Made by a program: the position numbers and the translations under genes. A DNA stretch of 64,000 nt from Terebella lapidaria (taxonomy: Eukaryota > Annelida > Polychaeta > Terebellida > Terebellidae): assembly GCA_949152475.1 (NCBI GenBank), contig OX424560.1, positions 22,011,106 to 22,075,105 on the forward strand, given 5' to 3'. Positions within the stretch are counted from its first letter, which is position 1; every line of letters starts with the position of its first letter. Shown here piece by piece: positions 7,640 through 61,275 of this stretch. Below the pieces are notes generated by a model. That model was not told where the DNA came from. It saw only the letters and a program-made list of their open reading frames with translations, and searched no databases.

Positions 7640-9290
7640 ACAGAAAGCTCTCAGGCGCTTTACATTAAAATAAAGATACAGAAATGTATACATACAGTTG
7701 AAATCAACAAGTGATGAAAGTAAAAGTACATGAGACATGAACATACATTGGTTACACATTGTGAGCAAGTTTAAGAAGGTGAATCTTTAGACGTTTTTTT
7801 AAAATAGCTACAGTTTGAACAGCTTTGATATCCTCTGGTAAGACGTTCTATAATGCTGAGGTCGACTTTCTGAGGCAGCGGTCACCAAAAGTAGCAGTCC
7901 TAGTTTTGAGGACAGGCAGGAGTGACTTGGAAGCAGATCGTAGAGACCGGACAGGTGTATGCTGTTGGATGAGGTCAGTCAAATACTCAGGTGCCAGTCC
8001 GTTCAGCGACTTGTATGTGTATACAAGTATCTTGTAAGTGGCCCGGTAACAAACTGGGAGCCAATGGAGTTCGCACAGGATGGGAGATATATGTTCCCAT
8101 TTGCGGGTCCTTGTTATTAGACGAGCGGCACAGTACTGCACCCGTTGGAGACGCTGCAACACAGTGTTCGGGAGTCCATATAGCAAGGCATTTCCATAAT
8201 CCAGTCGCGACACGACAAGTGCTCGAACAAGTGTCTTGCATGTGTCGGTTGTAATTAAATGCCTAATGTTGCCAGTGTTTCGAATTTGTAGAAGCAGGAC
8301 TTCGACACGGAACTTATGTGCTTTTCCATGGTCAAGCCGCTGTCCATGATGACACCCAAGGTTCCTGACTGATTGTACTGCCTTGACATGATGGTCGCCG
8401 ATTTTTAGGCACACATTGTCCACCTTCTTGGCTTTCAGCTTTGATGCGAAGACAATCAGTTCAGATTTTTCCTGGTTTAATTTCAACATGTTGTGGCTCA
8501 TCCATGCTCCAACTTCCTGCACATGCTTCCATCCTGGATGCAACATTGTCCCAGCTATCGTTCAGGTTGATGGTTAGGTATATTTGCGTATCATCTGCGT
8601 AGCAGTGGTACAGCATTCCGTGACGCTTGATTATGTTGCCAACCGGCTTGGTGTACAAACAGTACACTTTAGGTCCCAATACAGACCCCTGTGGGACGCC
8701 ACACTCCAGCAACACATCATGCGACTCCTCGGTGCCAGCCCGTACGCGTTGGAATCTGTCACTAAGGTAGGAGCGCACCCACCTCAGAGCACCAGAAGTC
8801 ACCCCAAAAGAATGTTGGAGTCGCTGCAGCAGGATGCTGTGGTCGATCACATCGAAAGCTGCAGATAAGTCCAGCATAATAAGGACGGCGACATGCTTGC
8901 TGTCAAGGGCTTCTACGATGTCATTATGAATTTTCAGTAGAGCAGTTTCGGTAGAGTGGCCCCGCCTGTACGCCGACTGGAGTCCATCGTGTAATGAATA
9001 GCTGCTGATGTGGTCATCGAGACGTTTAGCAACGACGTGTTCCAAGATCTTCGACACAAAGGGTAGGTTTGATATTGGTCAAGAATGTTTGAGTTGCTCC
9101 TTATCCAATCCTGGCTTCTTAAGTACTGGCGTCACCACTGCACGTTTGAAGTCAACTGGAACTGTGTAGTCCGCAAGAGATTTATTGACTATGGCTGTGA
9201 TGATGGGTAGCAGGGGATCAATGCAGTCCTTCAGAAGCCATGTTGGCAGTGGATCAGAACCACACGACTTGTTTGGCGCTTTAATATAAC
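7640..9290 (-). mobile_element. 5'-truncated LINE, CR1/L2-like reverse transcriptase fragment
   Basis: Minus-strand reading gives the order typical of CR1/L2-group ORF2: SDPLPTWLLKDCIDPLLP, PVLKKPGLDKEQL, SKILEHVVAKRL, RRGHSTETALLKIHNDI, LDLSAAFDVIDHSILL, GVPQGSVLGP, the YADD catalytic box, then the distal RLDYGNALLYGLPN, RLQRVQYCAARLITRT and LHWLPVCYRATYKIL blocks. The part before the 'SDPLPTWLL' block (endonuclease, ORF1) is absent, as usual for 5' truncation. The copy is dead. An in-frame stop replaces the Arg of 'NYRPISNL' near 9080, a frame change falls near 8530, another lies in the 'NLGV' region near 8350, and a stop near 7850 replaces the Trp of 'WN.LP'. The 3' flank is AT-rich with no clear tandem tail. 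Confidence 0.9.
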
Positions 9291-28145: not shown

Positions 28146-28149
28146 TTAA

Positions 28150-28166
28150 GGTGGTATTAGTGAGTA
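28150..28166 (+). repeat. Left terminal inverted repeat of the TTAA transposon
   Basis: GGTGGTATTAGTGAGTA, preceded directly by TTAA. It is an exact inverse match to 34217-34233. Confidence 0.95.
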
Positions 28167-28425
28167 AAATAAAATTTCAAGACATCGCAAATAATTGTGT
28201 TTTCAGAAAGTTCTGTTTATATGTAGTCTTTTAAAGAAATAAAAATAATATGTACCGGGGCTTCCCTTCCAGATAATCTACGAACAAAAATGTGTGTAGA
28301 ATTTCAGTTGTCAGAAAAATACCATTGCTTTCAATGGCTGATCGAATATGTGTCAAATTAATTTTTGCACTTCTGTCATAGCAAAATTATTTTGAAAATA
28401 TTCAAATTTTGTATTTTTTTTGTAG

Positions 28426-28960
28426 AAAGAAGCACTATTGATCTGATTATGAAGACAAAGTAGGAGTCAAAGGGGGAAAATTCAGATGTTTGATGCCAAT
28501 TTATATCTGATGATCAGGTGTTTTCACCTTAGTTTTCTGTTGGTTTTGATTGTTCGTCACATACATCGTATCCAGTTTTATTTTTCTGTCACTGCTAGTT
28601 TTCTCAAGAAATGTACAGAATTGGTATATTTTGTACACAAAGACATAAGGAATCGGATTAGCAAGAAAAATGTAGGGGTCACGGGGGAAAATTGTGGTGT
28701 TTGGAGCCAATATATATATGGTAATCATTTGTTTCCCCCATCTTTCTGTCTATTTAAATCGCTGGTCAGAGGCATCTTACCCGTTTATTATCTTCTATCA
28801 ATGCTAACTTTTTCAAGGAATGTACAGAATTGGTATATTTTGTATACAAAAACACATAAGGATGCTGATTTTCAAGGAAAAAGTATGGGTCACGGGGAAA
28901 AATTGTGGTGTTTGGAGCTAATACCCAGTATATATCTGTTAATCAGTTGTTTTCATGCAT
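28426..28960 (+). repeat. 209-bp tandem repeat in the transposon left arm, ~2.5 copies
   Basis: 'gtacagaattggtatatttt' recurs at 28613 and 28822. 'gtcacgggggaaaattgtgg' and 'gtcacggggaaaaattgtgg' recur at about 28679 and 28889, with a diverged partial copy (gtcaaagggggaaaattcag) at 28467. The plus-strand frame spanning it is an artefact of the repeat. Confidence 0.85.
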
Positions 28961-29457
28961 GTCATCAAATTTGTTGTTTTTAATGCAATGGGGCAAACAG
29001 GTTCTCATGATTATTTTAAGGTTATATCAATAGTGAAGATCATATTTAATAATTTTGAATTAATGTTCACCCGTTCAATAGAGGTTGTTATAGCAACCAA
29101 TACTGATACTGTGAGATTTACAACCATAAATACAAAATCACATCGTGATATTTGCCCAGAATGGTATCTTCCTTATCAGGACATCATTGGTAATAATTGT
29201 ATGCTTGGTAAAAATTCTAATTGCCATTGTACCCCCAAATCAATCAATAAAAAAGTTAGCAACCATGCTGCTATGGCTGGTGATGATGTTGTCAAGGCAC
29301 CAAAATTATAGATGTGCTTAGCACTACAAATAGTTTTGTACTAGCTAAATAGAATCCTCTAGTGCCCATAGCAACATGCTGAACATTTGCACAAATTCAA
29401 TACATAATTCAAAACAATTCAACATGGATGCAATCGAAGATTTATTAGTATTTGACA

Positions 29458-32400
29458 CTAAGGCAGAGAGTTGACAATTTTTTCAATGATATTGGTAGAT
29501 TTTGTGACCCTTACTTTTCCAGACACTTTCTCAGACAATAACTTGTTTATACCACAGTGCTTATCTCTGCTATGAGCAAGTTGTAGGTGCCTAAATGTTA
29601 GACCTGACCCAGCTATTTTCTCTGCAATGCCACGGGAAACAACCCTCTGTTTGATCATATCTTTCAATGTACATAAATTTACATCTTTTTGTCTCTTGTA
29701 ATCAATATAGTCTCGGACATAATCCACAGTGAAAGAATACTTCATCAGGGAGTTTGAATCAAGTACTTTACACAACTTCTTGAGAGCGCGAACATCTTCG
29801 ATGGAATCGTGAGCATCATAAACATGTTCACAAAAATCTGAGCATAAATCAACTTGTTTATATGATTTCCGTTTTGGGTATTCTTTTTTGAAAGTAATCA
29901 AGCTATCACCGAAACCACAACAAACTTCTTGAAAGGCTGAAACAAGAGAGAACTCTCTCAACCTATTGAACAAAATTATGCTGTCGAAAATCTTGGCATT
30001 ATGCCCAACTAAAATACAGTTCTTAAAAGGTGTCAAAAAATCAATGAAGTCAGTCAGGGCCTTGAAAGGCATAACAGCTGATACAGGCTTTTGCTTATGC
30101 AGTAAGACGTCATTTTCATATGTTAAGAGAGTTGCAGCAGATGCATCTTTGGTGATGTTCTTGCGAGGAATGACATATTTGTTGAACTCTTTGTCTCCAT
30201 TTTCTGTGATGGCGGATATCTGAACGATGTCTGCATTTCTGTCTGAAAATATTAAAATGGATTATTCAGTGACATTCCTCAACTGCGCATGTGAATGAAA
30301 ATACCAATTACTGCCACAGGAAAACAATATGATTTTAAAATCTCGAAATACAACAATATGTAATTTGATAGATTTTTCAATCAGTGAGCACACAAATCCG
30401 TGCAAACCCTTGAAGCTTATACTGAAGAAAATAACTGAATACTTATCATAATATGCACTGTCCTCACTGAGATATATTTATGGAGATACATTATATGCAC
30501 AAAATAGCTGTACACTTATCTTTCAGGAACATATATTCATGACATTAATTACCTAATCCGGTGGTTTCCAGGTCGAAGAAAATTTTCATTGCGTGCTCCT
30601 CAACTGGAGAAGGTGTGGGTGCTAATACAGGAGCCGGTATTTCAGTTTCATCCACTGACACCAAGTCCCCAATGCCTATGAACAAAAATGTCGGTTGTAA
30701 ATTCATCAAAAAGATAATAAATATACATTATTGTTGAAATAAATCAAATCACTTGACAAATTATCATGATGTTAATATTGTCATCTGAACACATTTTTGC
30801 CTGGTTTTTCTTCATACCTGGTTGATATGTCGTCCCTTCTCGCAATTCAGAAGATGAGTTCTTTGATGTGCTTTGCTCCTTGAGACTTGCTCTCCTTCGT
30901 TTGTAGGCGACCGAATTTTGCAGGGTCCTCTTCTTTGCCCTCATTTTGTCTAGCCGGTGTGCAGCTGAACCAGTGAAGCACCCAGGTGACAACCCAAGTT
31001 TTTTGTTCAACTAGAAAAAAATGATGAGCAGATTTGACTAAATGCAGAATATATACACATATGGCATACATTTTTCTCATAAATCATGTGGCATACTGGA
31101 AAAAATTATTACATGTAATCTCTGGTGGCACGATTAAAACAGCAACAACAACCAACAATGAACAATACAAATACATTTTGAATTACACTGAAATTATCAC
31201 TTATCACGTTACAATGTTGAATGAATTGATACCATGGACACTGAATAGCACACGAATACAACACCAGTATAGTTCTGATATTGGTGAATAGGAATGATAA
31301 GATTATCTACTAGTGCATCAATATTCCAAAAAGAATGAAATCAAACAGGAACGACGAATAAAAATAAGTTTTATATTATGATTGAATGACCTTCATCCAA
31401 TAAGAAGAGCCTTGATTTTTTTCTGACACTGCTGAACCAATTCTGTACTTCAGTGAATGAGAGCCACCATAGTGATGGGATTTGGGAGCTTTTTTCGAAA
31501 TAGAACTATTCAAGGACTCATTTGCTTGTGAGGATCCCAGATTAGCCAGTTGTTCTGATTGATCTGAATATCGCCTAAATAGCGATATTAGATCAGTTTT
31601 CAAGGACTCTCCAGACAAAGGTTTATGTCCTGGCAAACCTTTGTGTTTGTAGTCCAAGGGATTTTGGAGCTTGCAAGCACCGCACCAAGACTCTTCACAA
31701 CCCGAGTGATCATGGAATGCATGCGTGACAATGCTAGACAAGCGGGACTGCAAACCTTCAGGGTCATTCTTCTTTTGATTTATCGCCAAAGAAAACATGC
31801 GTTTGAAGTACTTTATAACATTGTAAGTTATAGACTTGTGCTTCTTTTGCAAGTTATAAAGTTCATTCACAAGGGTTTTTGCTTTGTGGTTTCGGTCTGA
31901 AATCTTGTTGATATTCACATCAACGGTTCGCCTAACTTTAGAAATTGTTGTTGCATCATCATCCATGACCAAGTTTGTGACAGTGTAGCCATCTTTGATC
32001 AGGTCATTCAGTAAACTACATGCCATATCAGGTTCCATAGCTTTTGAACTGCCTGACCAATTTCGAGAACAATCATGAATTTTAGGAGGGTTCCCAGATG
32101 ATCTAGATTTTTCACAGGTCTTGCAGGATTTGCTTCTAAAGGTATATTTTAGAACTTTTCCAGAGTGTTTTCCGATGAGAGCTCCATGCCCTGAGAGAAA
32201 TTCGAAATAGTATTAATGGTTTTAAATTTTCAAATGGTTTTAAAAATGAAACAAACTAAACGTCTAGGCCTAAAGATGCCTTGGAGGCATTTTGGAGTTC
32301 AGACTAATTCGTAATATTTATAACATGTTTGCCACGGTCTCTACGACCCACCGTTTCCGAGATGTCGCCGAAAAAATGCCGATTCGGCTAAGAAATATGA

Positions 32401-34071
32401 GGTCAAGGTAAAGGTCATCCTCAATACCTCTTAGACATGTTTGTCTCGGGCGACGAGTGGACCGTTTCCGAGCTATACAAGAGGCCTCAAAGATAACCTC
32501 TGGGTGATAGGTCGCTTGACCATATGTCCCCAAAATCGATACAGTTATTCCCTGGTCATATAATAACCTGCATAGTTTTGCATCCATTGCCTGAATAGTT
32601 TTGGAGTTATTGCGCGGAAACGAAGTCCAAAAAATGACCTCGATTTCAACCTCAAGGACCACAGATGCGGCTCAAAACTATACAGCACATCTACATAATA
32701 TGTCTGAACAGTGGTGAAAATTTCAAGTCGATCCGTCAAGGCGTTCTCGAGTTATCACGCGGAAACGAAAACGACGGAAGAAAAAAAAAAGATTCTGACA
32801 AAACCATAAAGGCACTTCTGCAAAAATGCCTTACAACAGAAAGGCAAAACACCATGATAATAGCTTATCGGGCCACAGTGATAAATTTATCGACCCACAC
32901 GACAATAGTCTAGTGTCAGCCTGTAAGGCTTTACCAAAGAAAATTTTGACAAATTTATGATGGTACAGATTAAATGTAATGGCAATGTATGCAATGGCAA
33001 ATAAAATTATGAAATTTTCACCTGTCAAGCTGTTATAAGCACGTCCGGTACTCCTCCTCTGCCAACCTGCATCATAGGATACAGTAAGGCCGCTTCCTTG
33101 ACAACTGTGAAGAAATCAAATTTTGTTATTTTTTTGTCATTCATTTGCCATTCATTCAGTTACTTGGTAATCATTTTCATGACATTCATCAAGGTGAAAC
33201 TTCATTCACCTAGTCTGCACGAGTCTGTGTTCTTCTTCACAAGCACTCCTACAAGATTCCTCCGCAACCTGTTCCAGTCCAGTCCCTACTTCCTTTTCTC
33301 TGCTGCACATTGTGGTGGCGCTTACGCTTGGCAAGTTCACAATTGCCAAAAATTTGTTCACCTGTCTTTCGCCAATTCCGATGTCAATCATCGCTGAAGA
33401 AGAGAACAGAAGTTAGTAATAACTGTTTTTATTACAATCAATCAATGTTTGTATATTAGCGTACTACATATTATATTCAGTACTCTCAATACTGTAAGTA
33501 GATCTAATACACATCAGGAATAAAACTGGGTGAACTGACCTGCTGCCAATTTCGTATTTATATCCCAAACTTTGGGTCCTTTGCCTGTCGTAGCAGTAGA
33601 GTGGCGTGTTCCAGTGGGAACTTGGTTCTCCTCCATACAGCTTGGGTTATCACATCGTATTTTGAGAATACTTCCCAGGCCATAGATTGACTCACCCTCA
33701 CAAGCAGAAAGTCGGAGTGGCATGTGGCATGGAGAACAGTTGTCCAGCCGCTTGGCCAGAAGGTCAAGTTCTACAATTCGACGTCCAGACTGCCATGATA
33801 AATCTATTAGTTCATTTGAATCCAAGTCCAGTTCCTGAGAGACTTCGGACCTGAGAGAAGGCCCTGTGACTGTACAAGTGTATGAATGATCGGGTAGGCC
33901 TACGGTGGGTGCTGCTGGGTCGGATTCGATGAGGGTGGTGCCACTGGTGGCACTGTTACTGGTGGTGTTGACATTGTTATCATTTCTGCACTGCACTGTC
34001 TGCAGACATTTTATCCGCCTTAGAAAAACGGAGCTTTTGCAGAATTTACCTTTGCGTGTTCTTTTTGTCAT
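29458..34071 (-). CDS. DDE transposase fused to DEDDh 3'-5' exonuclease, seven exons, 899 aa
   Basis: Minus-strand exons: 34071-33540, 33393-33210, 33104-33022, 32190-31391, 31010-30818, 30675-30553, 30242-29458. All have GT-AG ends and matching phases, and the total of 2700 nt is open throughout. The N-terminus has GRRIVELDLLAKRL and paired Cys (NCSPC, RCDNPSC), probably zinc-binding. The transposase core has D250 (VSYDAGW), D343-345 (LVMDDDATT) and E491 (SSQANESLN), with a His/Cys insert between. A basic LGLSPG ... LREGTTYQPG linker follows. The C-terminal exonuclease has Exo I D632/E634 (FFDLETTGL), Exo II D725 (LVGHNAKIFD) and Exo III H783/D788 (AHDSIED). The start was chosen as the ATG before a basic MTKRTRKGK. 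AATAAA (29446-29441 on the minus strand) closely follows the stop. Expected role: cut-and-paste transposition; the exonuclease may trim ends or flap DNA, which is inference. Confidence 0.88.
32275..32935 (-). repeat. Repeat of the 46.3-47.1 kb family inside transposase intron 3
   Basis: 'ccgtttccgagatgtcgccg', 'agacatgtttgtctcgggcg' and the end 'aaccataaaggcacttctgc' then 'aaaaatgcctta' match the 46.34-47.12 kb element in inverse orientation. It contains about one tandem unit where the other copy has three. It lies wholly within the intron 33021-32191. Confidence 0.75.
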
Positions 34072-34189
34072 TTCGCTCTTTGATATTGATAAAATGAAAC
34101 AAAACAGAGAAAAACGAAAACCAAACGACCGGCTTGTCAGCGTGAAAAAAGTAAAACACGCAAGAGTATAGCGTTGTAACGCCTTGTTG

Positions 34190-34215
34190 GTTATGCGCGT
34201 TATGATGCGCATAAC
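34190..34215. repeat. Subterminal palindrome of the TTAA transposon
   Basis: GTTATGCGC and GCGCATAAC are separated by 8 bp, directly inside the right inverted repeat and upstream of the gene start. It is a possible transposase or promoter site. No equivalent was seen at the left end. Confidence 0.75.
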
Positions 34216-34216
34216 G

Positions 34217-34233
34217 TACTCACTAATACCACC
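34217..34233 (-). repeat. Right terminal inverted repeat of the TTAA transposon
   Basis: TACTCACTAATACCACC followed directly by TTAA; exact inverse of 28150-28166. Confidence 0.95.
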
Positions 34234-34237
34234 TTAA

Positions 34238-42557: not shown

Positions 42558-45500
42558 ATGGAAGACACAGACTTAGATTTTGTTTGCGCTCATCTGGCTG
42601 ATTTTGTTGACGATTTCGATCAACCGGGGACCAGTGGTGAGCAAAACGTTGTTCCTAAACCTAGGGACAAACCTGTCGACTTTGATGATGTTCAAGCCTA
42701 CATAGAGTCAAAGAAGAAGGTGAATACTGTCAGGAACACATCCAGGGATGTTGCCAATATCAGGCGATGGCTTGCTGTGAACAAGTTCGAGCTCAGAGAG
42801 ATAGAGGACATTCCAGTTCCCGAGTTGGACAAATACCTGGCCCAAATGTGGCTTTCTATCCAAAAACTGAAAGGCGGTGAATATGAACCGGGCAGCCTCG
42901 AGCAAATGAGATGCTCACTCGACAGGTATTTGAGGGAGAAAACTGGTGGGAAGGTCACATTGAGGGGGACGGAGTTTCAGCTCTCGAACAGCAGCTTGAC
43001 AGCCAAAAAAACAAGATCTTAAGCTGCAGGGTTTAGGGCGGCTGGCGAATAAGGCGGTAGCGATCACCCAGGAGGAGGAGGACAAATTGTGGAGCGCAAA
43101 AGAGATGGGGACCCATAAGCCAACAGCCTTGCAGTTCACGATTTTCTTTTATTTCTCCAAGTGCCTTGGATTTCGAGGGAGGGAACAACATCGCAAGCCT
43201 CAGTTTGGGGACATCATTCAGGGTGAGACATCAGAAGGAGTCAAATACCTTGAGTACAAAGAACGTGACTCTAAAACTATGGATGGAACAGGGAAGAATG
43301 ACTGGAGACCAACTGTGCCAAAGATCTTCAGTACAGGAACAGACAGGGACCTTGTGGTGATTTTCGAAGAGTATGTCAAGAAAAGACCACCAACTGCTTG
43401 TGAGGAGAACAGTCCCTTCTATTTGACCCCCATACCCACAAAGCGACTCCGTACTGATGACCTTGTATGGTACTATCCAACTCCTATGGGACAGGTAGAT
43501 CTCCTATGGGACATATTATCATATATTTAGTCTGTGATTAAGAAGAAAATCCAGATAAGTCTAGTTATCAAGTTCTCAAAAATTAGATCTGATACTTTGA
43601 TACTCAAAACTATTTATTCATATAATCAATGGAAAACACTGAAACAATGTAAAAGTAATCATATACAGCTAATGTCATTTGTGGATATTGATAAACTGGA
43701 AATTTCATTAAAAAAAATCTTTTCATTCACCTGTGAACAGAACACACTGGGCACCCTCATGAAAACAGCATGTGAGGCAGCCGGCGATGTGGGGAAGAAG
43801 ACGAACCATTCACTTCGCAAAACGACTGTGAAGACCTTGCAGAGAGAAAACATTGCCCCACACAAAATCATCCAAGTTACTGGACACAAAAATGTGGCGT
43901 CTCTTAAGTCCTATGACAATGAACTTGAGGAGGCGGAACAAGTTCAATACTCAAATATCCTGTGTGCTAGGTATTTAACTAAGAGCATATTAATAATGTC
44001 TACATCACAGTATTTCATAACAAGTTCCCATACAGAAAATTAGACACGTCCTATATCAACAAAATTGCAATTATTTATACAGAAGTCTTCTTGACAAGTG
44101 AAACCAAAACTTCTATCATTTTGTCTCAACCAGGGTGATTTACAGGCTATATTGTGGCCCTAGAGAGGGGTGGGGGTGGGGGGGGGAGGGGGCGGTGGGG
44201 AACGTCTTCTGTACCATGTTATTGCATGCTAATTCTGAGTAATTTTTTTTTTTTCTGTATTAGAAAAAAAAATGCATTATTTGGGGCATACACTGTACAC
44301 ATAGATTCTATAACAACTTTGAAATTTGCTGTACTCTAGTTACCAAATGTTACTCTATAATATGAAATTTTATTCTGTACATCTCTATTGCACACAGTGT
44401 TCTACCATTGAACTATCCTCGTCTTTATGGGCAAGGAGTGAGATTTGAACTCACATCTCTGGTGCAATGTGAAAATGCACAAAACATTCATAATTATTTA
44501 TAGCACTGCCTGAACCATTTTGGTTGAGATTTCTGATCATTTTCTTAATCATAACATAGGTTTACCTTAGTACTTGGCATGTTTCATTCAATCAATGCAT
44601 CAATGCACATGCTTATTTTTAATAATTCTTTGTACATTTACATAAAGCTTTTGCTGAATTATCAGGGGAACAAAACAAAAATATGTCCATAATTTTTCTC
44701 TAGGCATGGCAGTTTAGGGGCTTCGTGCCATCATAGAACTATAGAGGGGAATTCTATGGTGCCATTTAGCAGAGCTCACATATATTCCATTCCAGGTCTA
44801 ATTCACAATATCCCATATTGTAATAGACTCTAGTTTAGTAGACTCCATAAATCTATAGAATTGTTTTTTTCTTCAAAATAAATCTATATAGACTAGTTAG
44901 GTTCTATGTATAGATCTAATATTATTTAGAGATGTAGATTCTGGATGTGGATTACGGTCTAGATTTTCTAATATTCAATATTAATATAGATCTACTTATC
45001 TTGATTTAAAAAATTCCATGACCATATCAATGACATTCGATTTTTTATAGATCTACAGTAGATGTGACATACATAGATTGTTTGTAATTTTATAGGGATT
45101 GCGAAGCATATATATCTACACGTAGAATTACACAATTAATTTTCAGATCAGTGCTCGTGGCTAAATCCTCGTCCGCGTCAATCCCTGCGCCTGGCGTGCC
45201 CGCCACAGCCGCAGCTGATACACCACGGGTCGACACACTGGAGAACCAACCTTACCTGACATCTGTTGCACGGTCTTCGACGTCTCAGTCCATGATGAAC
45301 GAGCTCTCCATCCCCACGTCGGCTGCGAGGCCAGTCGTCGCCTCCGAGGAAAGTCCTTACCGCGTGCCTCGTGAGAGTGGTTTGACAGCTCCGTCTTCAA
45401 CACGTGTCGTTCCTTCCCGTGACGGCGACCGTCTCCCGTTTTACAGCTTTGAAGGGGCAACTATGAACAACTGCAGCATCAACGTGGTTCACACGGCAGC

Positions 45501-48596: not shown

Positions 48597-49104
48597 TCTA
48601 CTCTGTGCGGCCTATATACAAGTACGGTATTGCATTATGATGGCTAATTTATAAAATATGTATTACATGATGGCCATAATGTCGTACTATGTCACTCATT
48701 TTTAAATTTTATCAATACAAATATATTCGCATGCACATGTTGTGTATGTACTTATAGGTCGGATATTACATGCCCGTTTATACTGTACTAGATATCCCAT
48801 GTAGCTATATGTTAGCATGCCGTCTGTGATGTGTTTCCACACTCACTGTATACATGCTATTCATCCATTATTTCATACTAAGTCGATTTTACACCAGTTG
48901 TGTTTATGACTAGTTATGACTTGCTACTATGGTGTACAGGTGCATGTAGGGTTCCGATCATATAAATATGATATGATATATATATATATATTTATATATA
49001 TCATCTGTGGTTCAGTGTGTTAAACTTCTCCTACCCTACATTTCTGACTATATGGGATACAACCGCTATTATTAATATTCTATTACTCGTTTTAGTAATA
49101 TTTT
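48597..49104. other. AT-rich spacer with (AT)n run
   Basis: A self-complementary AT stretch lies at 48967-49003. No gene was recognised. It lies between the hydrolase frame and the Gag-like frame. Confidence 0.5.
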
Positions 49105-49164
49105 ATGAGAAGTTGTTTTACTTCAACACAGATTAGTTGCGTTCTTTCCTGTTATTTTGACAGG

Positions 49165-50316
49165 ATGCCGAAGGTGAAACCCACGAAGCGTCGAGTGTCT
49201 CCCAGGGCTGGACGACCGAGTAGAAGTCGGGTAGAGTCCCTCAGTATGGATCTACCACATGATGCGACACAGGGTGTTGCCAATGCGGCACAGGGTGTCG
49301 CTAACTCGACTCAGGGTGACTCTACACGGGGGGTCCATAACGCGACACAGGGTGTCGTCAATGTGACCAATGCAACACCCGATGCTGCCCTGATCGCCGC
49401 CATTACGACACAAGTGGTCGAGCAACTCCGAGCTTCAGCCACTACAATAATACCATCTACATCGTCTGCTTCCGCTTCTCGTGTGACACCACCAACGCAG
49501 GTGCCTGACGCGCACTCATCTTCCTCGGAGGACGAATTGTCCATGGATGGTCACCAGGATCTGCCACCGGCCAACGCTGTAGTTGGCGCAATTAATGAAA
49601 TCCTGGAGGGTGAGTCAAAACAGAGTCAATCTACCGAGCCCAGCTTCACCTCCGCCAGTAATCCTCTAGGTTCTGCATGCCCACTTAAAATAAAAAAGGC
49701 TATTTGGGCGGGAGAGTTTGTAGAGCTCAATACCCTCCTCAGGGATCATCCGGACCAGCAAATGTCCTTCACACCAACGCAAAAGAATGGAAAACCATCC
49801 ATTGCTGTGAATTCAGCAGCCTCCTCCTCCAAGCAGCTGGAGGACATACAGGAGTGGACCAACGTTATTCTAGTCCTGGGGGCCATCTACACTGAAAGGT
49901 TTCCAGAGCAAGGTCCAGCTTTTTTCAAGTACATTCGTACCGTACGGGATCTCCACGAAAAGTCACAGGGCGCAGCATGGAAGTATTACGATACTCAGTT
50001 TCGTAAGCTGAAACCAAAAATGGGCTGGTCCTGGGATTATATCAATTGGGAGCTCTACTTTGCAGCGTTGACCTTGCCGGCCTCATCCACTATCGACCGC
50101 CACCATCAACAACGAAAACGTGCCGACAATAGCAGTCAGTCCTTTCGAGTCCCTAGGGGTTTCTGTTTCCTGTTCCACAACAAAAACAGTTGCCTCGACA
50201 AAAACTGTCAATATAAGCACCTCTGCTTCTTGTGCAAGAAATCCAGTCACTCGGCCAGAAAGTGCAATACCCGTCAATCTGGACAGACCTCGGGTGACAA
50301 CTCCAATAAAAACTAA
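49165..50316 (+). CDS. Gag-like protein of the Ngaro-like fossil
   Basis: The frame starts MPKVKPTKRRVSPRAGRP, with a repeated NATQGV-type region, a Ser-rich acidic stretch and a conserved-looking central part (KKAIWAGEFVELNTLLRD). The C-terminus has a Cys/His cluster of zinc-finger type (CFLCKKSSHSARKC). It is the presumed nucleic-acid-binding structural protein of the element. Confidence 0.7.
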   Translation: MPKVKPTKRRVSPRAGRPSRSRVESLSMDLPHDATQGVANAAQGVANSTQGDSTRGVHNATQGVVNVTNATPDAALIAAITTQVVEQLRASATTIIPSTSSASASRVTPPTQVPDAHSSSSEDELSMDGHQDLPPANAVVGAINEILEGESKQSQSTEPSFTSASNPLGSACPLKIKKAIWAGEFVELNTLLRDHPDQQMSFTPTQKNGKPSIAVNSAASSSKQLEDIQEWTNVILVLGAIYTERFPEQGPAFFKYIRTVRDLHEKSQGAAWKYYDTQFRKLKPKMGWSWDYINWELYFAALTLPASSTIDRHHQQRKRADNSSQSFRVPRGFCFLFHNKNSCLDKNCQYKHLCFLCKKSSHSARKCNTRQSGQTSGDNSNKN

Positions 50317-51950
50317 ACAGTTAGCCTTTATTCTTCGAGGCTATGATCGGGATGAAACCACTTTTCTAGTAAATGGTTTCACGCATGGATTCCGAATTCC
50401 TTCAAATCCCACCCAGGGTCCAGTCCAGTCGGAGAATCATCGTTCGTCACAAGTTCACTCTAAAGAAATTGACCAGTACATACAGAAGGAACTTTCATTA
50501 TCCAGAATACAAGGACCTTATTCCTCTCCTCCTTATGAAAAATTGTTTGTTTCACCCATAGGTGTCGTTCCCAAGAAGGAACCGGGAAAATTTAGACTTA
50601 TCCATGACTTAAGTTACCCACGGGATATTTCTGTTAACGACTCTATAGCTAGAGAGGATGCTGCTGTACAATATGAAACTCTGGACCATGTTATAGACTT
50701 GGTTTTGAATGCTGGTTCAGGCTGTTTTATTGCTAAGACTGATGTGGAATCGGCTTTTCGTATAATACCTATCCACCCTTCATGTTATAACCTACTGGGT
50801 TTCAAATGGAACGATTTATTTTATGTGGACAAATGCTTGCCCATGGGCTGTCGTGCATCATGTCAGCTGTTCGAGCGCTTCAGCTCGGCCATACAGTGGT
50901 CACTGATTCATAACTATTCAGTCCGTTCCATGTCACATATATTGGATGACTTTATTTTCATAGCGTCTGATCGACGGACATGCAGATCATACTTGGATAA
51001 ATTCATGGTGGTTGCTAACATGATTGGCCTGCCCATCAAGGAGGAAAAAAAAAGTTCTCCCTACCACTGTGGCTATAGTCCATGGCATTGAAGTTGATAC
51101 AATACGAATGGAAGCCAGGCTCCCTACTGACAAACTGGTTAAAATCAGGGAGCTTCTTCGTCTCCTTCGCAAGTCTAAGAAAACTACCCTTCGACAATTA
51201 CAATCTGTTATTGGCCTTCTCAATTTTGCCTGTCGTGTTATTACGCCAGGTCGGGCCTTCTTGAGGAGACTAATTGCACTTACAAAAGGAGTGACCCAGC
51301 CCAATCACCACATACGACTTAACTATGAAGCGCGCGCTGATCTGGAGGCTTGGTTTGTGTTTCTATCAGAGCACAATGGTAAAACCCTCCTTCTCCAGAG
51401 GCGTTGGCAGAATTCTTCAAAACTGTCTTTCTACACAGATTCTGCTGGATCTCTGGGCTTTTCGGCAGTGTTTGGATCCAACTGGTTCAACGGCAGGTGG
51501 CCGGAAGAATGGAAAACGCTATCGATTGCCTTCTTGGAACTGTTTCCCATTGTTACAGCCTTAGAACTATGGGCTTATGACCTCAATAACAAGTGTATAA
51601 TTTTCTACACTGATAACAGCTCTATCGTGGACGTTATTGCAAAGCAATCTTCTAAAGACTCCGACATTATGTACTTAGTCCGTAGGCTGGTCATCACTTG
51701 TTTGAAGCATAATATTATGTTCTCTGCGACACATATCCCAGGCAAAACTAACGTTATTTGTGATCTACTTTCTCGATTGCAGGTCCAACGTGCCAAAGAG
51801 CTAGCTCCGTGGCTGAACAACCAGCCCGTGGTCCTGCCATCACATCTACTACCTCAAAATATTCAATTACGCAGCTCCTCGTTGCGTCGCTTGCCCCAAG
51901 TTCTCGGAAATCCTACGCCAGAGCCATCAAATCCGTCTACACGTACTTGA
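50317..51950 (+). pseudogene. Reverse transcriptase / RNase H region of the Ngaro-like fossil
   Basis: The reverse transcriptase shows KFRLIHDLSYP, KTDVESAFRIIPIHP, LPMGCRASC and a divergent catalytic box ILDDFIF. The RNase H shows FYTDSAGSLGF, AFLELFPIVTALELW and YTDNSSIVDVI. These are the DIRS/Ngaro type. It is treated as a fossil; no repaired reading is offered. Confidence 0.85.
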
Positions 51951-52765
51951 AGTCGATTTCATCATTTCCACTGTTCCCGACTTCTTCACTCCAGATGATG
52001 GAGTACATATCCCATGCGGTATCATCTGGACTAGCTTCATCTACAGTGACTTCCCAGCTGTCAGCGGTTTCATTTCTGCATAAACTATCCAATCAACCGG
52101 ACCCAACTCAATCATTCATCATCAAGAAGTTGTTAATTGGGGCACAACACCTACATCCCTCAAAGGATGTGCGCATGCCATTGCAATTGGATTCTCTGCA
52201 TGGTCTGGTTCGGTCTTTGCCGCACACGACATCATCGACTCAGCATGCAGTTCTCCTGAAGGCTATGTATCTATTGGCCTATGCAGCCTTCCTCCAAGTC
52301 GGTGAATTTACCGTTTCTCCAGGTCAGAGCCATACAATTCAGTTATCGGACATAAAATTCAGGGCCAAATCCAATCGCTGTGTCGCGGTCCATGTCACCA
52401 TTCGCACTTTCAAACATAGTACTCCAGCACGCCCGATCACCCTCCGGATCACAGCCCAGGAGTCGGAGATGTGTCCAGTACAATCACTTCGTACTTACCT
52501 CAGGAATCGAGGCAAAACCCAAGGGCCCCTATTTCTATTCCCAGACGGCTCCCCTGTACGAAGAAGCTACTTCATGTCTCAGTTTCGGTCATCACTCGCC
52601 TGGGTTGGACTTGATCCTCGGGTATACAAAGGTCATTCGTTTCGAATTGGCGCTGCCACAACGGCAGCTCTCCGTGGTGCTTCAGAATCTCAGATCGAAG
52701 CCATGGGCAGATGGAGATCGAAGGCGTACAAACGTTATATCCGAATACCGATGATCAATGCATGA
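51809..52765 (+). CDS. Tyrosine recombinase of the Ngaro-like fossil
   Basis: 318 codons, open. The N-terminal core-binding part is SRKSYARAIKSVYTYLKS. The catalytic part has FLQVGEF, GHSFRIGAATTAA and MGRWRSKAYKRYIRIP, matching the recombinases of DIRS/Ngaro elements, which integrate circular DNA without an integrase of retroviral type. Confidence 0.85.
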   Translation: MAEQPARGPAITSTTSKYSITQLLVASLAPSSRKSYARAIKSVYTYLKSISSFPLFPTSSLQMMEYISHAVSSGLASSTVTSQLSAVSFLHKLSNQPDPTQSFIIKKLLIGAQHLHPSKDVRMPLQLDSLHGLVRSLPHTTSSTQHAVLLKAMYLLAYAAFLQVGEFTVSPGQSHTIQLSDIKFRAKSNRCVAVHVTIRTFKHSTPARPITLRITAQESEMCPVQSLRTYLRNRGKTQGPLFLFPDGSPVRRSYFMSQFRSSLAWVGLDPRVYKGHSFRIGAATTAALRGASESQIEAMGRWRSKAYKRYIRIPMINA

Positions 52766-55780: not shown

Positions 55781-57478
55781 TTAGGTTACCGGACCTATGG
55801 TCCGATAACCTATTGGCATGGCGTTGCGTCCGTCAGCGTCGACGGCGTCGGCCGTCCACACTTTTATCTTCAAAGTTTACGATCGGATCGTTCTGAAATT
55901 TTGCACAAAAATACCTAAAAATATTTCAAGAGGGGGTTATTTTTCTGTTTTTCGATTTTCGCAATTTTTTTTAAAAATGGCGGCCATTTTCGCCGAAAAA
56001 CGGCCAATTTCTGACTTTGGGGGCCATTTTCTCAAAAACTGTTCAGACAGTTTTGAGATTTTTATTTCAAAAGATTGCTCCCACATACCTCTGAGACGTG
56101 TATAAGTTTCGTTGCCCCTGAATCGCCGGTCTGCGTGTAGCGGCCATTTTCATTTTCTGGACGGGTCCCAAATAGGACTTTCTCATGTTAAATTCTCCTA
56201 TGCTTTATAATGGGACACATTATGCCTAATATCTCACTTAATATTGAGATTAGAGACTAGGAATCAATTGTGCACACATAGGAAATGATATATGCTGATA
56301 ATTGTCATGACCTTGAATTTGACCTTTGACCTCATTTTCAAGGTCACAGCACAAAATGGCTAATATCGCACTTATTATCGACTTTACAGCTTAGGAATCA
56401 ATTGTGGACATATAGGAAATGATATATGATGATTATCGTCATGACCTTGGATTTGACCTTTGACCTAATTTTCAAGGTCAGAGCACAAAATGGGTAATAT
56501 CACGCTCATTATCGACCTCACAGCTTAGGAATCAGTTGTGCACATGTAGGAAATGATACAGTCTGAATATTTTGATGACCTTGAATTTGACATTTGACCT
56601 CGTTTTCACAGTCAAAGTACAAAATGGCTAATATCTCACTTAATATCAACTTTACAGCTTAGGAATCAATTGTGGACATGTAGGAAGTGATATATGCTGA
56701 ATATTTTCGTGACCTTGAATTTGACCTTTGACCTCATTTTCAAGGTCAGAGCACAAAATGGCTAATATCTTGCTTATCATCGACTTTACAGCTCAGAAAT
56801 TAATTGTGAACCTATAGGAAATAATATATGCTGCACATTGTTGTGACCTTGAATTTGACCTTTCATCTTATTTTCAAGGTCAGAGCACAAAATGGCTAAT
56901 ATTTTGTTTTTATCAACTTAACTGCTTGGGAATCAATTGTGAACATCAATGAATTAATATATGGTGAATATTGTTATGTCCTTGAATTTGACCTCTTTGA
57001 CATTTTTCCTTATGATCGGCCAGTTCAGAAATGTTTCTAGGTCAGGCCTAGTGGTATAAACAAAATGTTCGTACGCGCCATGTTCAAGTGTGAGTGACGC
57101 GGTGAACTCGAAGTAAACAAAGTATTTAGTATTGTACAAGCGAAATTGAGTAATGTGTTGGTGACAGTGACTCGACAATGGTAGCGGGACAGCATGGATT
57201 GGCTATGTTTATACCACTTGACCCTGACCCAATTCCACTTACCTAACCTGAAAACATTTCCGAACTCACGTATGGGAGCTGTGTGGAGTAAACTCGTAAA
57301 CACTTCAAGATAGACCTTAAATACTGGCAGTATCAAATGGGAAATCATATTGCAGTGTCAATGGTAATCTTACATTTCACCTTCAATGACCATGAAAGAT
57401 CAATATGACAATTTGAATGAAAAATGTCATCGTTTCAAACTGAACATTTCTCCGGTAACCTCTCAGCCCTTGGGCTAA
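55781..57478 (-). repeat. AGGTCA-satellite element, copy 7, with a nested MITE
   Basis: Starts TTAGGTTACCGGACCTATGG, with the end module to about 56200, then five to six monomers with exact TGACCTTTGACCT at 56320, 56455 and 56722. After an interruption it closes with 'ccggtaacctctcagccctt' and 'gggctaa' at 57478. Confidence 0.85.
57021..57272. mobile_element. Small MITE nested in satellite element copy 7
   Basis: 'gttcagaaatgtttctaggt' and 'gtggtataaaca' at the left are matched in inverse by 'tgtttataccac' and 'acctgaaaacatttccgaac' at the right. There is no coding capacity. Confidence 0.65.
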
Positions 57479-58156: not shown

Positions 58157-60180
58157 TCATGTGATCAAGTTGTTGGAGTTCTTGAAACACTCCCTACACC
58201 AATCTCCCACGTCCTTACAATTTACATGCACATTTTCCGTGGCCCCAACAAAAAAACTGAATATGTGCTCTGCAACGCCCATACCAGCTGCTGCAATGGC
58301 CTGTATGAGTATTATCCACCAGGTGCCGAAGTAAGCCATCAATTGTGCTGCCAAAGCTCCTGCACCAAGAAAGCCTGCTCCGAATCCAGCTCCAGCAAAA
58401 CCAGCAGGGACCGCGATCACGGCGATAGTGCCCCCTGCGATCTCACACCTTTTGAATGAAAACACTTATTCTACAGGAAAAATTTAGCCCAAGGGCTAGG
58501 AAAGGTTACCGGACAATATATATTTTAGATATTAGCCTTTTGTCCCGCGACATTGGTAATAAGATCATTGGTCAATTCAAGGTCACGAGAATAGTCAGCA
58601 GATATCATTTCCTACATGTTCACTATAAACCCCTGAGCTGTAAAGTCGATATTAAGTAAGATATTTGCCATTTTGTGCTTCGACCTTGAGAATGAGGTCC
58701 AAGGCCAAATTCGAGGCCATCAAAATATTTCAGTGTATACCATTTCCTTCATGTCCACAATTGGTTTCAAAGCTATAAATCAATACAGCAGCAAGATATT
58801 AGCCATTTGGTTCTTTGACCTTGAAAATGAGGTCAAAGGCGAAATTCAAGGTCACGGCAATATTCAGCATATATCATGTTCTGTATGTTCACAATTGATT
58901 CCTAAGCTGTAAAGTCGATCATTAGCGAGATATTAGTCATTTTGTCCTGTGACCTTGAACTTTAGGTCAAATTCGAGGTCACGAGAAAAATATGTATATA
59001 TCTTTTCCTATATGTTCATAATTGATTCCTAAGCTGTAAAGTCAATAATAAGAGATATTAGCCATTTCAGCCATAAAAAGAGATATTAGCCATTTCAGCG
59101 ATAAAAAGAGATATTAGCCATTTTGTCTTGCGACCTTCAAAATGATATGAGGCCAAAGGTCAAATTCAGTTCATGACAATATTCAGTAAATATAATTTCC
59201 TATATCTCCCCAATTGATTCCTGAGCTGCAAAGTCGATAATAAACGAGATATTAGCCATTTTGTCCTGTGACATTGAAAATTAGGTCAAAGGTCACATTC
59301 ATGTTCATGAAATTCAGAATTTATCATCTCCTATATGTTCACAATTGATTCCCAAGCTATAAAGTCGATAATAAGCGAGATATTAGCCATTTTGTCATGT
59401 GACTTTGAAAATTAGGTCAAAGGTCAAATTCATGTTTATGAAAATATTCAGAATTTATCATCTCCTATATGTTCACAATTGATTCCCAAGCTGTAAAGTC
59501 GATAATAAGCGAGATATTAGCCATTTTGTCATGTGACCTTGAAAATTAGGTCAAAAGTCAAATTAAAGGTAATGAGAATATTCAGCATATATCATTTCCT
59601 ATATGTCCACAATTGATTCCTAATCTCTAATCTCAATATTAAGTGAGATGTGCCCAAAAAAATGTGCCCCATTACAAAGCATAGGATGATTTAGCATAGG
59701 AAAGACCCATTTGGGCCGAGTTTAGACCCAAAATGGCCCACTTCCGAGTGATTCAAGGGTAACGTCACAGGGGTACATGAGGAGCGTTATGCATCAATAG
59801 GAAAAAAGTTACTGAACAGGTTTTGAAAAAAACGACCGTCAAAGTCCAAAATTGGTCGTTTTTTCGTCAAAACTGGCCGCCATTCTGGAAAATTCTGGAA
59901 ATCAAAAAACTAGAAAATACCTCCCTCTCCTATCATTTTTAGGCATTTTTGTGCAAAATTTCAGAAAGATTCGATTGTAAACTTTAAAGATAAAAATGTA
60001 GACGGACGATGGACGACGGACGCAATGCCACGGCAGTAGGTTATCGGACCAAAGTTCGGTAACCTAAAAACGGAAATATAATTATTGGCCGAGTATCGAA
60101 AACTGACTGCACAATAGTCACTCTCACTTACTTGTACTGCCAAATCTTGCAGAGGACACATTTGCCTGGGAATGCATCGT
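58157..60180 (-). CDS. IFI6/27 (ISG12)-like protein, copy C
   Basis: Minus-strand exons 60180-60132 and 58448-58157 join in phase 2: DAFPGKCVLCKIWQY then KCEIAGGTIAVIAVPAGFAG, AGFGAGFLGAGALAAQLMAY, FGTWWIILIQAIAAAGMGVA, and the tail VNCKDVGDWCRECF. The open frame is 97 codons past the junction. The upstream exon or exons (start codon, any signal) were not found. The Gly/Ala-rich hydrophobic segments fit the Ifi-6-16 family. The flanking Cys pairs (KCVLCK, WCREC) could form disulphides or bind metal. The intron hosts satellite element copy 8. It is the best preserved of the three copies; the function in this organism is unknown. Confidence 0.6.
58484..60067 (+). repeat. AGGTCA-satellite element, copy 8 (longest intact)
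   Basis: Starts TTAGCCCAAGGGCTAGGAAA, then AGGTTACCGGACAATATA. It contains about eight monomers (134-bp spacing, for example 59341 to 59474) and the end module with 'gacggacgatggacgacgga', and ends GGTAACCTAA. It sits inside the intron of IFI27-like copy C in opposite orientation to the gene. Confidence 0.85.
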
Positions 60181-60787
60181 CTGTCAAGAATACATGTATT
60201 TACCTTATTACCCATTTGTGTTGATGTCTCATTGTAGTAGATTTGTTTGTAAGTGCCGCCTGTGAATATTTCAGCATGAGAGGGCTAGGCAACTGGGGAC
60301 TAGTAGAGAATATGCATCTGTTTCCGTAGCGCCACCATCGGTCATCGTGGCATAATTCAAAATGAATAATGCGCAAATATATACATTATATTGAGATAAA
60401 ACTAAAACTCAATCCACAAAGGCTGAATACAAGATACACACACAACTGTATATGAAGAATACCGTTCACAGGCCGGTATCAGGCCGTAGCTCTTTAAAAT
60501 CTGGGTCGTTGTGCAAGAATAAGCCGGCAGTTGATTTCACTGTTTATTTGGATGATAATATACAATATTATTCACTCGGTGGTATTCCCACTGTAAGGAC
60601 ACTCCTGATTGGGCGTTTTGTACCACGTGACAATCCTACATACTCAATGTTGGACGGCGAAAGTCTATATTGGACGGCAAAAATGTATATTGGACGGGCG
60701 GGTGCTTATCAGTAAAACAGAGCGTGTGTTACATGTGGGTTTTCCCCACTCTGGGTTTCTCCTACATTCATTGGTAAATAATATAGC
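60181..60787. other. No recognised gene
   Basis: 60.28-60.36 kb matches the flank of IFI27-like copy A. Words 'tatattggacggc' recur three times at 60640-60700, next to the palindrome that follows. Confidence 0.45.
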
Positions 60788-60926
60788 AAATGTTGGATGT
60801 TGAGAGTCGACCAATATACAGTTTACGGGATTTAGAAATGTCATATTGACCTCGGCTGCGCCTCGGCCAATATGACATTTCTTCATCCCGTAAACTGTAT
60901 ATTGGACTCCTCAACATCCAATATTT
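60788..60926. repeat. 139-bp near-perfect palindrome
   Basis: The left arm aaatgttggatgttgagagt, then accaatatacagtttacggg, pairs with the right arm ending actcctcaacatccaatatt. The centre is near 60857 in 'ggctgcgcc'. It is a foldback element. Confidence 0.9.
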
Positions 60927-61275
60927 GTATAATGTTGCACATATATCTCAGGCCGTCAAACACACTGAAGTCCAGTGGAACAAATATCCCCGTCGTATAT
61001 AGGTATCCTAAATTATAGTCTCTTGTATATCAATATTACAGTTTATACGTATATCCTCTCTTATACGATCACAGCCAGTTTCTCAATCTATAAAACACGT
61101 CTTTACACTTAAATAACTCTTATTCGTCTGCGCGGGGCCGAGGACCATGAGGGTGGATTTTCCCGCCTAGAGTATAAGGGGTCGTGATTGGCTATGTAAT
61201 GTGCTGATCTCATCTGAAATGTGGGTTTTCCCTGTGTGTGTTCTGTCACATCTGTTCACATGATCTGAGAGCAGC

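Follow-up and report, generated by a model that had tools for sequence, protein, structure and literature searches.

A KolobokD transposon of the annelid Terebella lapidaria encodes a predicted transposase fused to an exonuclease-SAM module homologous to the tail of vertebrate PML

Transposons of the Kolobok superfamily are recognised by TTAA target-site duplications, by 5'-RR and YY-3' ends and by a DxxH motif in the transposase; a CCHC finger past the first catalytic D marks KolobokD and a few other Kolobok lineages, and KolobokD is Kolobok with a DEDDh exonuclease, described from molluscs, arthropods and cnidarians (Kojima and Bao 2022, PMC9587614, in the accessible portion of the article). 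The same portion proposes that, during transposition, DNA intermediates are digested by this exonuclease starting at the 3' end. KolobokE, as described in extracts of the literature, has the same transposase family with a nuclease downstream, which is of the lambda type (Pfam YqaJ in our scans) and not DEDDh. Dada elements of Laccaria and Ectocarpus combine a DDE transposase with a DnaQ-type exonuclease for which 3'-end processing was proposed; however, that exonuclease is DEDDy and sits in the stretch of the transposase that separates the second D from DxxH (2013, PMC3706591, in excerpt). Here, we describe a KolobokD element in a 64,000-nt stretch of the Terebella lapidaria genome (GCA_949152475.1, contig OX424560.1; referred to as the window), in which the exonuclease and the domain that follows it are, by sequence comparison, related to the C-terminal part of PML.

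A search for inverted repeats in the window gave a single perfect pair of 21 bases, at 28146-28166 and 34217-34237. Because this pair reads TTAA followed by a 17-base terminal repeat starting GG, the transposon spans 28150-34233, i.e. 6,084 bp. Its termini, GG...CC, fit 5'-RR ... YY-3', and elsewhere in the window TTAA plus the terminal repeat found no match at up to three mismatches (0 of 100 shuffles matched). Between the ends lies a minus-strand gene of seven exons, all with GT..AG introns, that add up to 532+184+83+800+193+123+785 = 2700 nt and encode 899 amino acids, the sole stop being the last codon. Its splice sites were inferred from phase, consensus and homology. The seven-exon model in a preliminary description of this DNA was exact to the base, joining in phase to 2700 nt and 899 residues, and all ten residues named there are present (D250, D343-D345, E491, D632, E634, D725, H783, D788). 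The gene coordinates given as the unit also stood, but the whole transposon is larger and its ends had been overlooked. Similarly, the exonuclease was said to begin in its own small exon (30675-30553) after a basic linker: linker and DxE motif do lie there, while the exonuclease core is split over exons 6 and 7. The features are as follows.

28146..28149, no strand: left TTAA target-site duplication flanking the transposon
28150..28166, plus: terminal inverted repeat GGTGGTATTAGTGAGTA, 17 bp, at the 3' end relative to the gene
28150..34233, minus: whole transposon, autonomous KolobokD, 6,084 bp, delimited from its ends and from copies in the genome
29458..30242, minus: exon 7, 785 nt, remaining DEDDh exonuclease (D725, H783, D788), SAM-like domain and stop
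29470..29679, minus: PML_C (SAM-like) domain, residues 827-896, PF25244, E 7.4e-21, coordinates derived from the gene model
30553..30675, minus: exon 6, 123 nt, EIPxP linker plus the DxE motif of the exonuclease (D632, E634), ending in phase 1 after DLETTGL
30818..31010, minus: exon 5, 193 nt, basic linker with conserved REGxTY motif
31391..32190, minus: exon 4, 800 nt, transposase with CCHC finger (C289 C292 H305 C307), D345, DxxH ending at H368, and E491
33022..33104, minus: exon 3, 83 nt, transposase with the first catalytic D250
33210..33393, minus: exon 2, 184 nt, transposase
33540..34071, minus: exon 1, 532 nt, start codon at 34071
34217..34233, minus: terminal inverted repeat, 17 bp, at the promoter-side end
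34234..34237, no strand: right TTAA target-site duplication flanking the transposon

A Pfam scan of the 899-residue protein detected a Mutator-like transposase (PF20700, residues 96-436, E 5.5e-90), RNase_T (residues 629-795, E 1.8e-9) and PML_C (PF25244, residues 827-896, E 7.4e-21), the last of which the preliminary description had overlooked. The transposase has D250, D345 and E491 as a DDE triad with DxxH, ending at H368, between the second D and E; in the stretch from DxxH to E491, where the Kolobok superfamily has its first zinc finger, inspection of the protein shows cysteines and histidines. Conservation was scored in an alignment of 11 transposase-bearing proteins, the window protein included. 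D250 is kept in 9 of the 11 rows, D345, which is the conserved residue within D343-D345, in 10 (the axolotl row lacks it), and E491 in 9; the axolotl row is without all three, P0165 starts past the first D and P0155 is gapped at E. The CCHC finger is conserved in 10 of 11 rows (absent from the axolotl row), and the five exonuclease residues D632, E634, D725, H783 and D788 in 11 of 11. The element thus carries the five marks of Kolobok and KolobokD, namely TTAA, RR/YY ends, DDE with DxxH, the CCHC finger and a DEDDh exonuclease encoded alongside, the same combination as in the KolobokD of the accessible portion of PMC9587614. We are therefore virtually certain that it is an intact autonomous Kolobok-superfamily DNA transposon of the KolobokD lineage encoding a single fused protein.

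Profile comparisons show that the exonuclease and PML_C domains of this predicted protein together are the exonuclease-SAM (EXO-SAM) module of vertebrate PML, homologous with PML/Plex9. The exonuclease matched that of PML/Plex9 (9l8b, E 3.1e-34), and the profile fit was 1.1e-60 for Plex9, 1.4e-15 for Exuperantia (Exu) and, at best, 1.5e-7 for TREX1, these being profile scores. Moreover, a SAM-only model built from 22 transposase- or linker-bearing sequences matched all eight vertebrate rows at 24-34 bits, while the best of 400 shuffled tails reached 6.2. The window protein is colinear with gar PML and shares with PML isoform I (PML-I, whose C-terminus is called PXL) and Plex9 the homologous exonuclease and the SAM-like PML_C tail; it differs in having neither RING nor B-boxes, none of which was detected in its Pfam scan, and in keeping the active site, which human PXL has lost (PMC12934764, in the available text). 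A preprint, in its accessible sections, states that the EXO-SAM pair is otherwise known only from Exu, which is a pseudo-nuclease; the SAM part of Exu lay outside the structural alignment and is weak by sequence (0.1 bits). In the accessible portion of PMC9587614 the KolobokD exonuclease is compared with Exu, TREX and ERI1, and PML is mentioned nowhere in the main text. The link of the KolobokD tail to PML was not found in the literature searched, a coverage outside which Mathavarajah 2023 (Plex9) falls, and no co-mention of Kolobok and promyelocytic leukemia was found in that literature.

The preliminary description's claim of one intact protein with both domains is supported: the fusion is confirmed as real and intact in the window copy, and homologues with the same domain order were found among the proteins of other organisms. 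PF20700 occurs together with the exonuclease and/or PML_C in at least 15 database proteins among the matches listed (8 of 12 in one set, 1 of 120 listed of 190 in another and 6 of 41 in a third), from sources that include oysters, mussels, abalone, scallop and axolotl; axolotl and hemichordate copies lie outside the taxa named for KolobokD in the accessible portion of PMC9587614. Some of the fused proteins are contiguous frames on contigs barely longer than the frame itself, e.g. P0164 with 854 aa on 3,011 bases. In BLASTP, the window protein aligned colinearly, with gaps, to P0003 (40.5% over 775 columns) and P0004 (39.4% over 757). The linker motif REGxTY...EIPxP is conserved, EGxTY being present in 14 of 16 fused proteins including that of the window, in an alignment for which solo proteins were partly picked by the linker motif and fused ones by the transposase domain. 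Because KolobokD (2022) and Dada (2013) were already published, a transposase-exonuclease fusion is not new as a kind; the earlier idea of a new twist on cut-and-paste chemistry was thus anticipated by the KolobokD exonuclease with a similar proposed role and by the DEDDy exonuclease of Dada, as far as the accessible parts of PMC9587614 and PMC3706591 go.

Copies were sought in the genome of the window (G000, 761.6 Mb) by scoring the best 40 of 5,226 candidate places. One of these is the window element itself. At two others the match is confined to an internal stretch, and the remaining 37 are shorter relatives with the left end at 76-79% identity, from base 1 in 36 and from base 4 in one. Among 20 loci inspected, 17 are two-ended, i.e. 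the window copy and 16 deletion derivatives of 1,400-1,444 bp; the other three have the left end only (two) or an internal repeat (one). TTAA is present on both sides in 15 of the 17 two-ended copies and absent from both sides in two, in one of these by one base each. Genome-wide, the TTAA plus terminal-repeat pattern at up to two mismatches gave 213 matches as opposed to 4 for the reversed control. Given this excess and the shorter two-ended relatives, we conclude that the window element is an autonomous copy of a transposon family that spread in the genome.

A second KolobokD, L014 (G000:C6:1754500-1764000), is a 723-aa intronless frame with PF20700, linker, RNase_T and PML_C, in which the PF20700 match begins at profile position 135, i.e. 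within the transposase; its own ends were looked for and not found. Four further long Kolobok-type proteins, from 4 of 10 loci, were scanned, and all four have a YqaJ domain at the place of the exonuclease, so that the layout of KolobokE also occurs in this genome. In line with KolobokE, an exonuclease at this place of Kolobok proteins seems, from these domain matches, to have been acquired at least twice. G000 contains 114 PF20700 matches, and near-identical 716-aa Kolobok-type frames form tandem arrays (C310, C319, C5:45.12 Mb, C11:4.98 Mb and C2:11.08 Mb). The usual spacing is near 4.25 kb, and 3.8 kb on C2, an arrangement that recalls KolobokP multimers.

A genome scan for RNase_T gave eight places, of which the EXO-SAM profile fits only four (L009-L012); because these eight omit the window copy itself, the scan is no census. 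Besides the window copy and L014, three EXO loci gave no transposase match over the roughly 7 kb scanned on their upstream side, and no PF20700 match, out of 114, lies near them. In L015 (G000:C7:40776500-40786300), the EXO-SAM exons lie downstream, on the same strand, of three exons with FANCM as best match (PDB 9el5, E 5.9e-24, 4.8e-23 and 6.3e-17). In L016 (G000:C11:13698000-13707900), the EXO exon pair directly follows tandem dual-specificity phosphatase (DUSP) exons (PF00782, E 3.7e-16) and has an EIPP linker trace. In L017 (G000:C7:7683500-7693300, minus strand), an open frame of 1,168 aa, which has several repeats centred on FEDEDFED, continues in frame into the DLETTGF exon of an EXO-SAM pair. 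The SAM tail was detected in L015 and L017 and not in L016; 0 of 500 shuffles scored as well as the linker trace of L016, 5 of 500 for L015 and 53 of 500 for L017. The window's terminal repeat, sought in L014-L017 and L020-L023, gave only places with 5-6 mismatches.

By consensus splice signals, the window element and L015-L017 have one intron position in common: the codon next to DLETTGL/F is interrupted behind its first base (phase 1). Since this position is identical in four loci, it means, as far as predicted splice signals go, that the exon pair would have been transferred at the DNA level, in either direction. The same-codon, same-phase signals back the mobile exon unit behind the preliminary description's suggestion of capture by exon addition. 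None of the three loci is claimed as a proven fusion: the EXO-SAM exon of L015 and the last DUSP exon of L016 each end in their own stop, and the 1,168-aa frame of L017 is likewise not counted. A downstream exon of L015 that resembled the FANCM nuclease domain by eye matched nothing. EXO-SAM in L015 lies inside or just past a FANCM-like helicase gene and could yield a FANCM isoform with a nuclease tail. In Crassostrea virginica P0006/P0007 (LOC111118926), one predicted protein combines PF13771, which we take to be a PHD-like finger, with the KolobokD linker and EXO-SAM, a combination that may come from a gene-prediction merger.

We claim shared ancestry of the KolobokD and PML/Plex9 modules, and not its direction, because the root is unsettled and the vertebrate proteins have no convincing linker trace. 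Tree rows were hand-picked, from the 60-row tree onwards out of 165 proteins plus the window; the long row P0010 was dropped from the outgroup trees (60-row, phage) and the 63-row tree. In the 60-row tree, 21 vertebrate PML/Plex9 rows lie on one side of a branch with 100/98 (values that the program calls rough), and the window lies outside, in an unresolved spread of copies, some borne on transposons and some solo, whose sources include molluscs, hemichordates, axolotl, one cnidarian and one crustacean. The split recurs in an earlier 55-row tree (100/98) and a later 63-row tree (97/93). In the 60-row tree the axolotl protein may or may not join the vertebrate clade (p 0.355), although its exonuclease shares 46-48% identity with P0013 and P0108, both from fish.

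Tentatively, and a little short of an even call, we read PML exon 9/Plex9 EXO-SAM as descending from a domesticated KolobokD, the module being a travelling terminal exon that other host genes, including a FANCM gene of this genome, took. Two things speak for the direction from transposon to host, as far as predicted proteins can: how widely the transposon form is distributed, and axolotl P0162 (Ambystoma mexicanum). In P0162, of 947 aa, the Kolobok transposase half is broken and in part duplicated and the exonuclease-SAM part is intact, which suggests that KolobokD-like elements have lived in a vertebrate; it could be a KolobokD relic or a domesticated vertebrate gene.

Descent may instead have run the other way, a Kolobok element having captured an ancient host gene of animals, of the exonuclease-SAM type, that today is represented by PML/Plex9 and the FANCM and DUSP neighbours; we regard this as credible though doubtful. 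With a bacterial outgroup and 60 rows, the outgroup joins the vertebrate side and the 38 other rows form one clade (98/98), which speaks for this reverse descent; however, the branch leading to the outgroup is extremely long (2.81), and with that outgroup the backbone of the 55-row tree stayed unresolved while the vertebrates formed one clade (100/98). Moreover, forcing the vertebrates together in the 60-row outgroup tree scored slightly better than the tree of the free search. A single-sequence query of a viral sequence collection found no relative, and an alignment query found five phage DnaQ-type loci at 21-24%, from which four different rows were used as outgroup. With phage outgroups added, the outgroup splits, the vertebrate branch has 53/91 and one clade of the others has p 0.443, so that neither rooting is rejected. 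FANCM-side and DUSP-side copies are nearest vertebrate Plex9 by path in the 63-row tree, through unsupported forks, which also fits capture by the element.

The linker bears on the same question. Its score in front of the exonuclease was compared with 200 shuffles per row, and no convincing trace was found in nine vertebrate PML/Plex9 rows (axolotl apart), which counts towards reverse descent: shuffles scoring as well numbered 8 for Salmo P0070, the best, 14 for Polyodon P0015, 18 for Amia P0031, 72 for shark, 163 for gar PML and 186 for full-length Polyodon PML (the ray row was unscored). From these counts, a similarity seen by eye in Polyodon was dismissed as evidence. By contrast, three of six invertebrate solo rows have a trace (0 shuffles for Saccoglossus, 0 for Actinia, 1 for Pinctada), those of Saccoglossus and Actinia counting against reverse descent; it is absent from Armadillidium (66), Nucella (70) and Littorina (96), and from axolotl (93). 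The module also occurs in molluscs and hemichordates, in one cnidarian and in one crustacean, whereas PML is not known outside jawed vertebrates; this, too, argues against an origin in the host.

As for the role of the exonuclease, the DDE transposase would cut and rejoin the element at TTAA, making 3' ends, the exonuclease would trim the 3' ends laid bare by the transposase when the element excises or inserts, and the SAM-like tail may help to hold nucleic acid, because binding of G-rich RNA and DNA is reported for the tail of PML-I and involves a SAM residue (PMC12934764, in the available text). In the Cas1-Cas2/DEDDh trimmer-integrase, 3' ends are trimmed before integration and the integrase gates the exonuclease (PMC10284694, in excerpt); the likeness is one of working only, a DEDDh exonuclease joined to a DNA integrase, while that integrase is unrelated to the KolobokD transposase and no membership is implied. 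By this analogy, controlled trimming at the element's ends is the simplest reading, at slightly less than even confidence. KolobokD identity together with the trimming role would be the best explanation of the whole, and we hold it to be rather probable. Three points weigh against it: an ungated 3'-5' exonuclease would degrade the very 3' ends on which strand transfer depends; the structural model of the P0003 fusion, not of the window protein, is moderate (predicted local distance difference test, pLDDT, 77; predicted template modelling score, pTM, 0.44) and uninformative on active-site placement; and among the 40 of 5,226 places scored, the window element is the one full-length copy.

Alternatively, the exonuclease may act outside the transposition reaction, in a TREX1-like clearing of extrachromosomal or cytosolic DNA such as donor ends and failed intermediates. 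This would shield the element from host DNA sensing or competing elements, and it is a fair rival, albeit an unlikely one. It agrees with the fold and residues of the exonuclease, which are of the TREX/Plex9 kind, with the reported suppression of LINE-1 by PML-I (PMC10152602, in part) and with the degradation of DNA intermediates in transposition proposed by Kojima and Bao (PMC9587614, accessible portion), whereas the conserved linker and the covalent fusion speak for action on the DNA that the transposase itself handles. That the gene is domesticated and immobile is very improbable: the single full-length copy among the scored places would fit, but the identical 17-bp ends, the intact TTAA on both sides, the intact frame and the many shorter relatives with the same ends argue against it. 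That the exonuclease exons are a separate gene adjoining a transposase gene is contradicted by the in-phase exon junctions, the single-frame fusion in L014, the at least 15 fused database proteins among the matches listed and the enclosure of both parts by one pair of terminal repeats, and borders on the impossible.

Elsewhere in the window, we noted a reverse transcriptase fragment (8464-9078, minus strand; RVT_1, E 7.4e-24), a DUF3504 domain (43000-43527, plus strand; E 5.2e-25), which we take to be related to Crypton-type tyrosine recombinases, and long overlapping frames at 49099-52762 (plus strand) with a weak tyrosine-recombinase match at the end (Phage_integrase, E 4.6e-4, below the cut-off). 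Dense repeats of about 134 bp at 56200-57000 and 58600-62800 lie in opposite orientations and form a large inverted structure.

Altogether, the tail of PML now has a relative that looks active and can be assayed, namely exonucleases whose active-site set is complete and which are borne on transposons in several animal groups, and the shared exonuclease-tail module brings the origin of PML exon 9 within reach of a test. A trimming exonuclease in KolobokD would be a eukaryotic parallel to the CRISPR trimmer-integrase. If descent from KolobokD is true, PML, an antiviral and anti-retroelement protein, would have got its nuclease tail from a mobile element.

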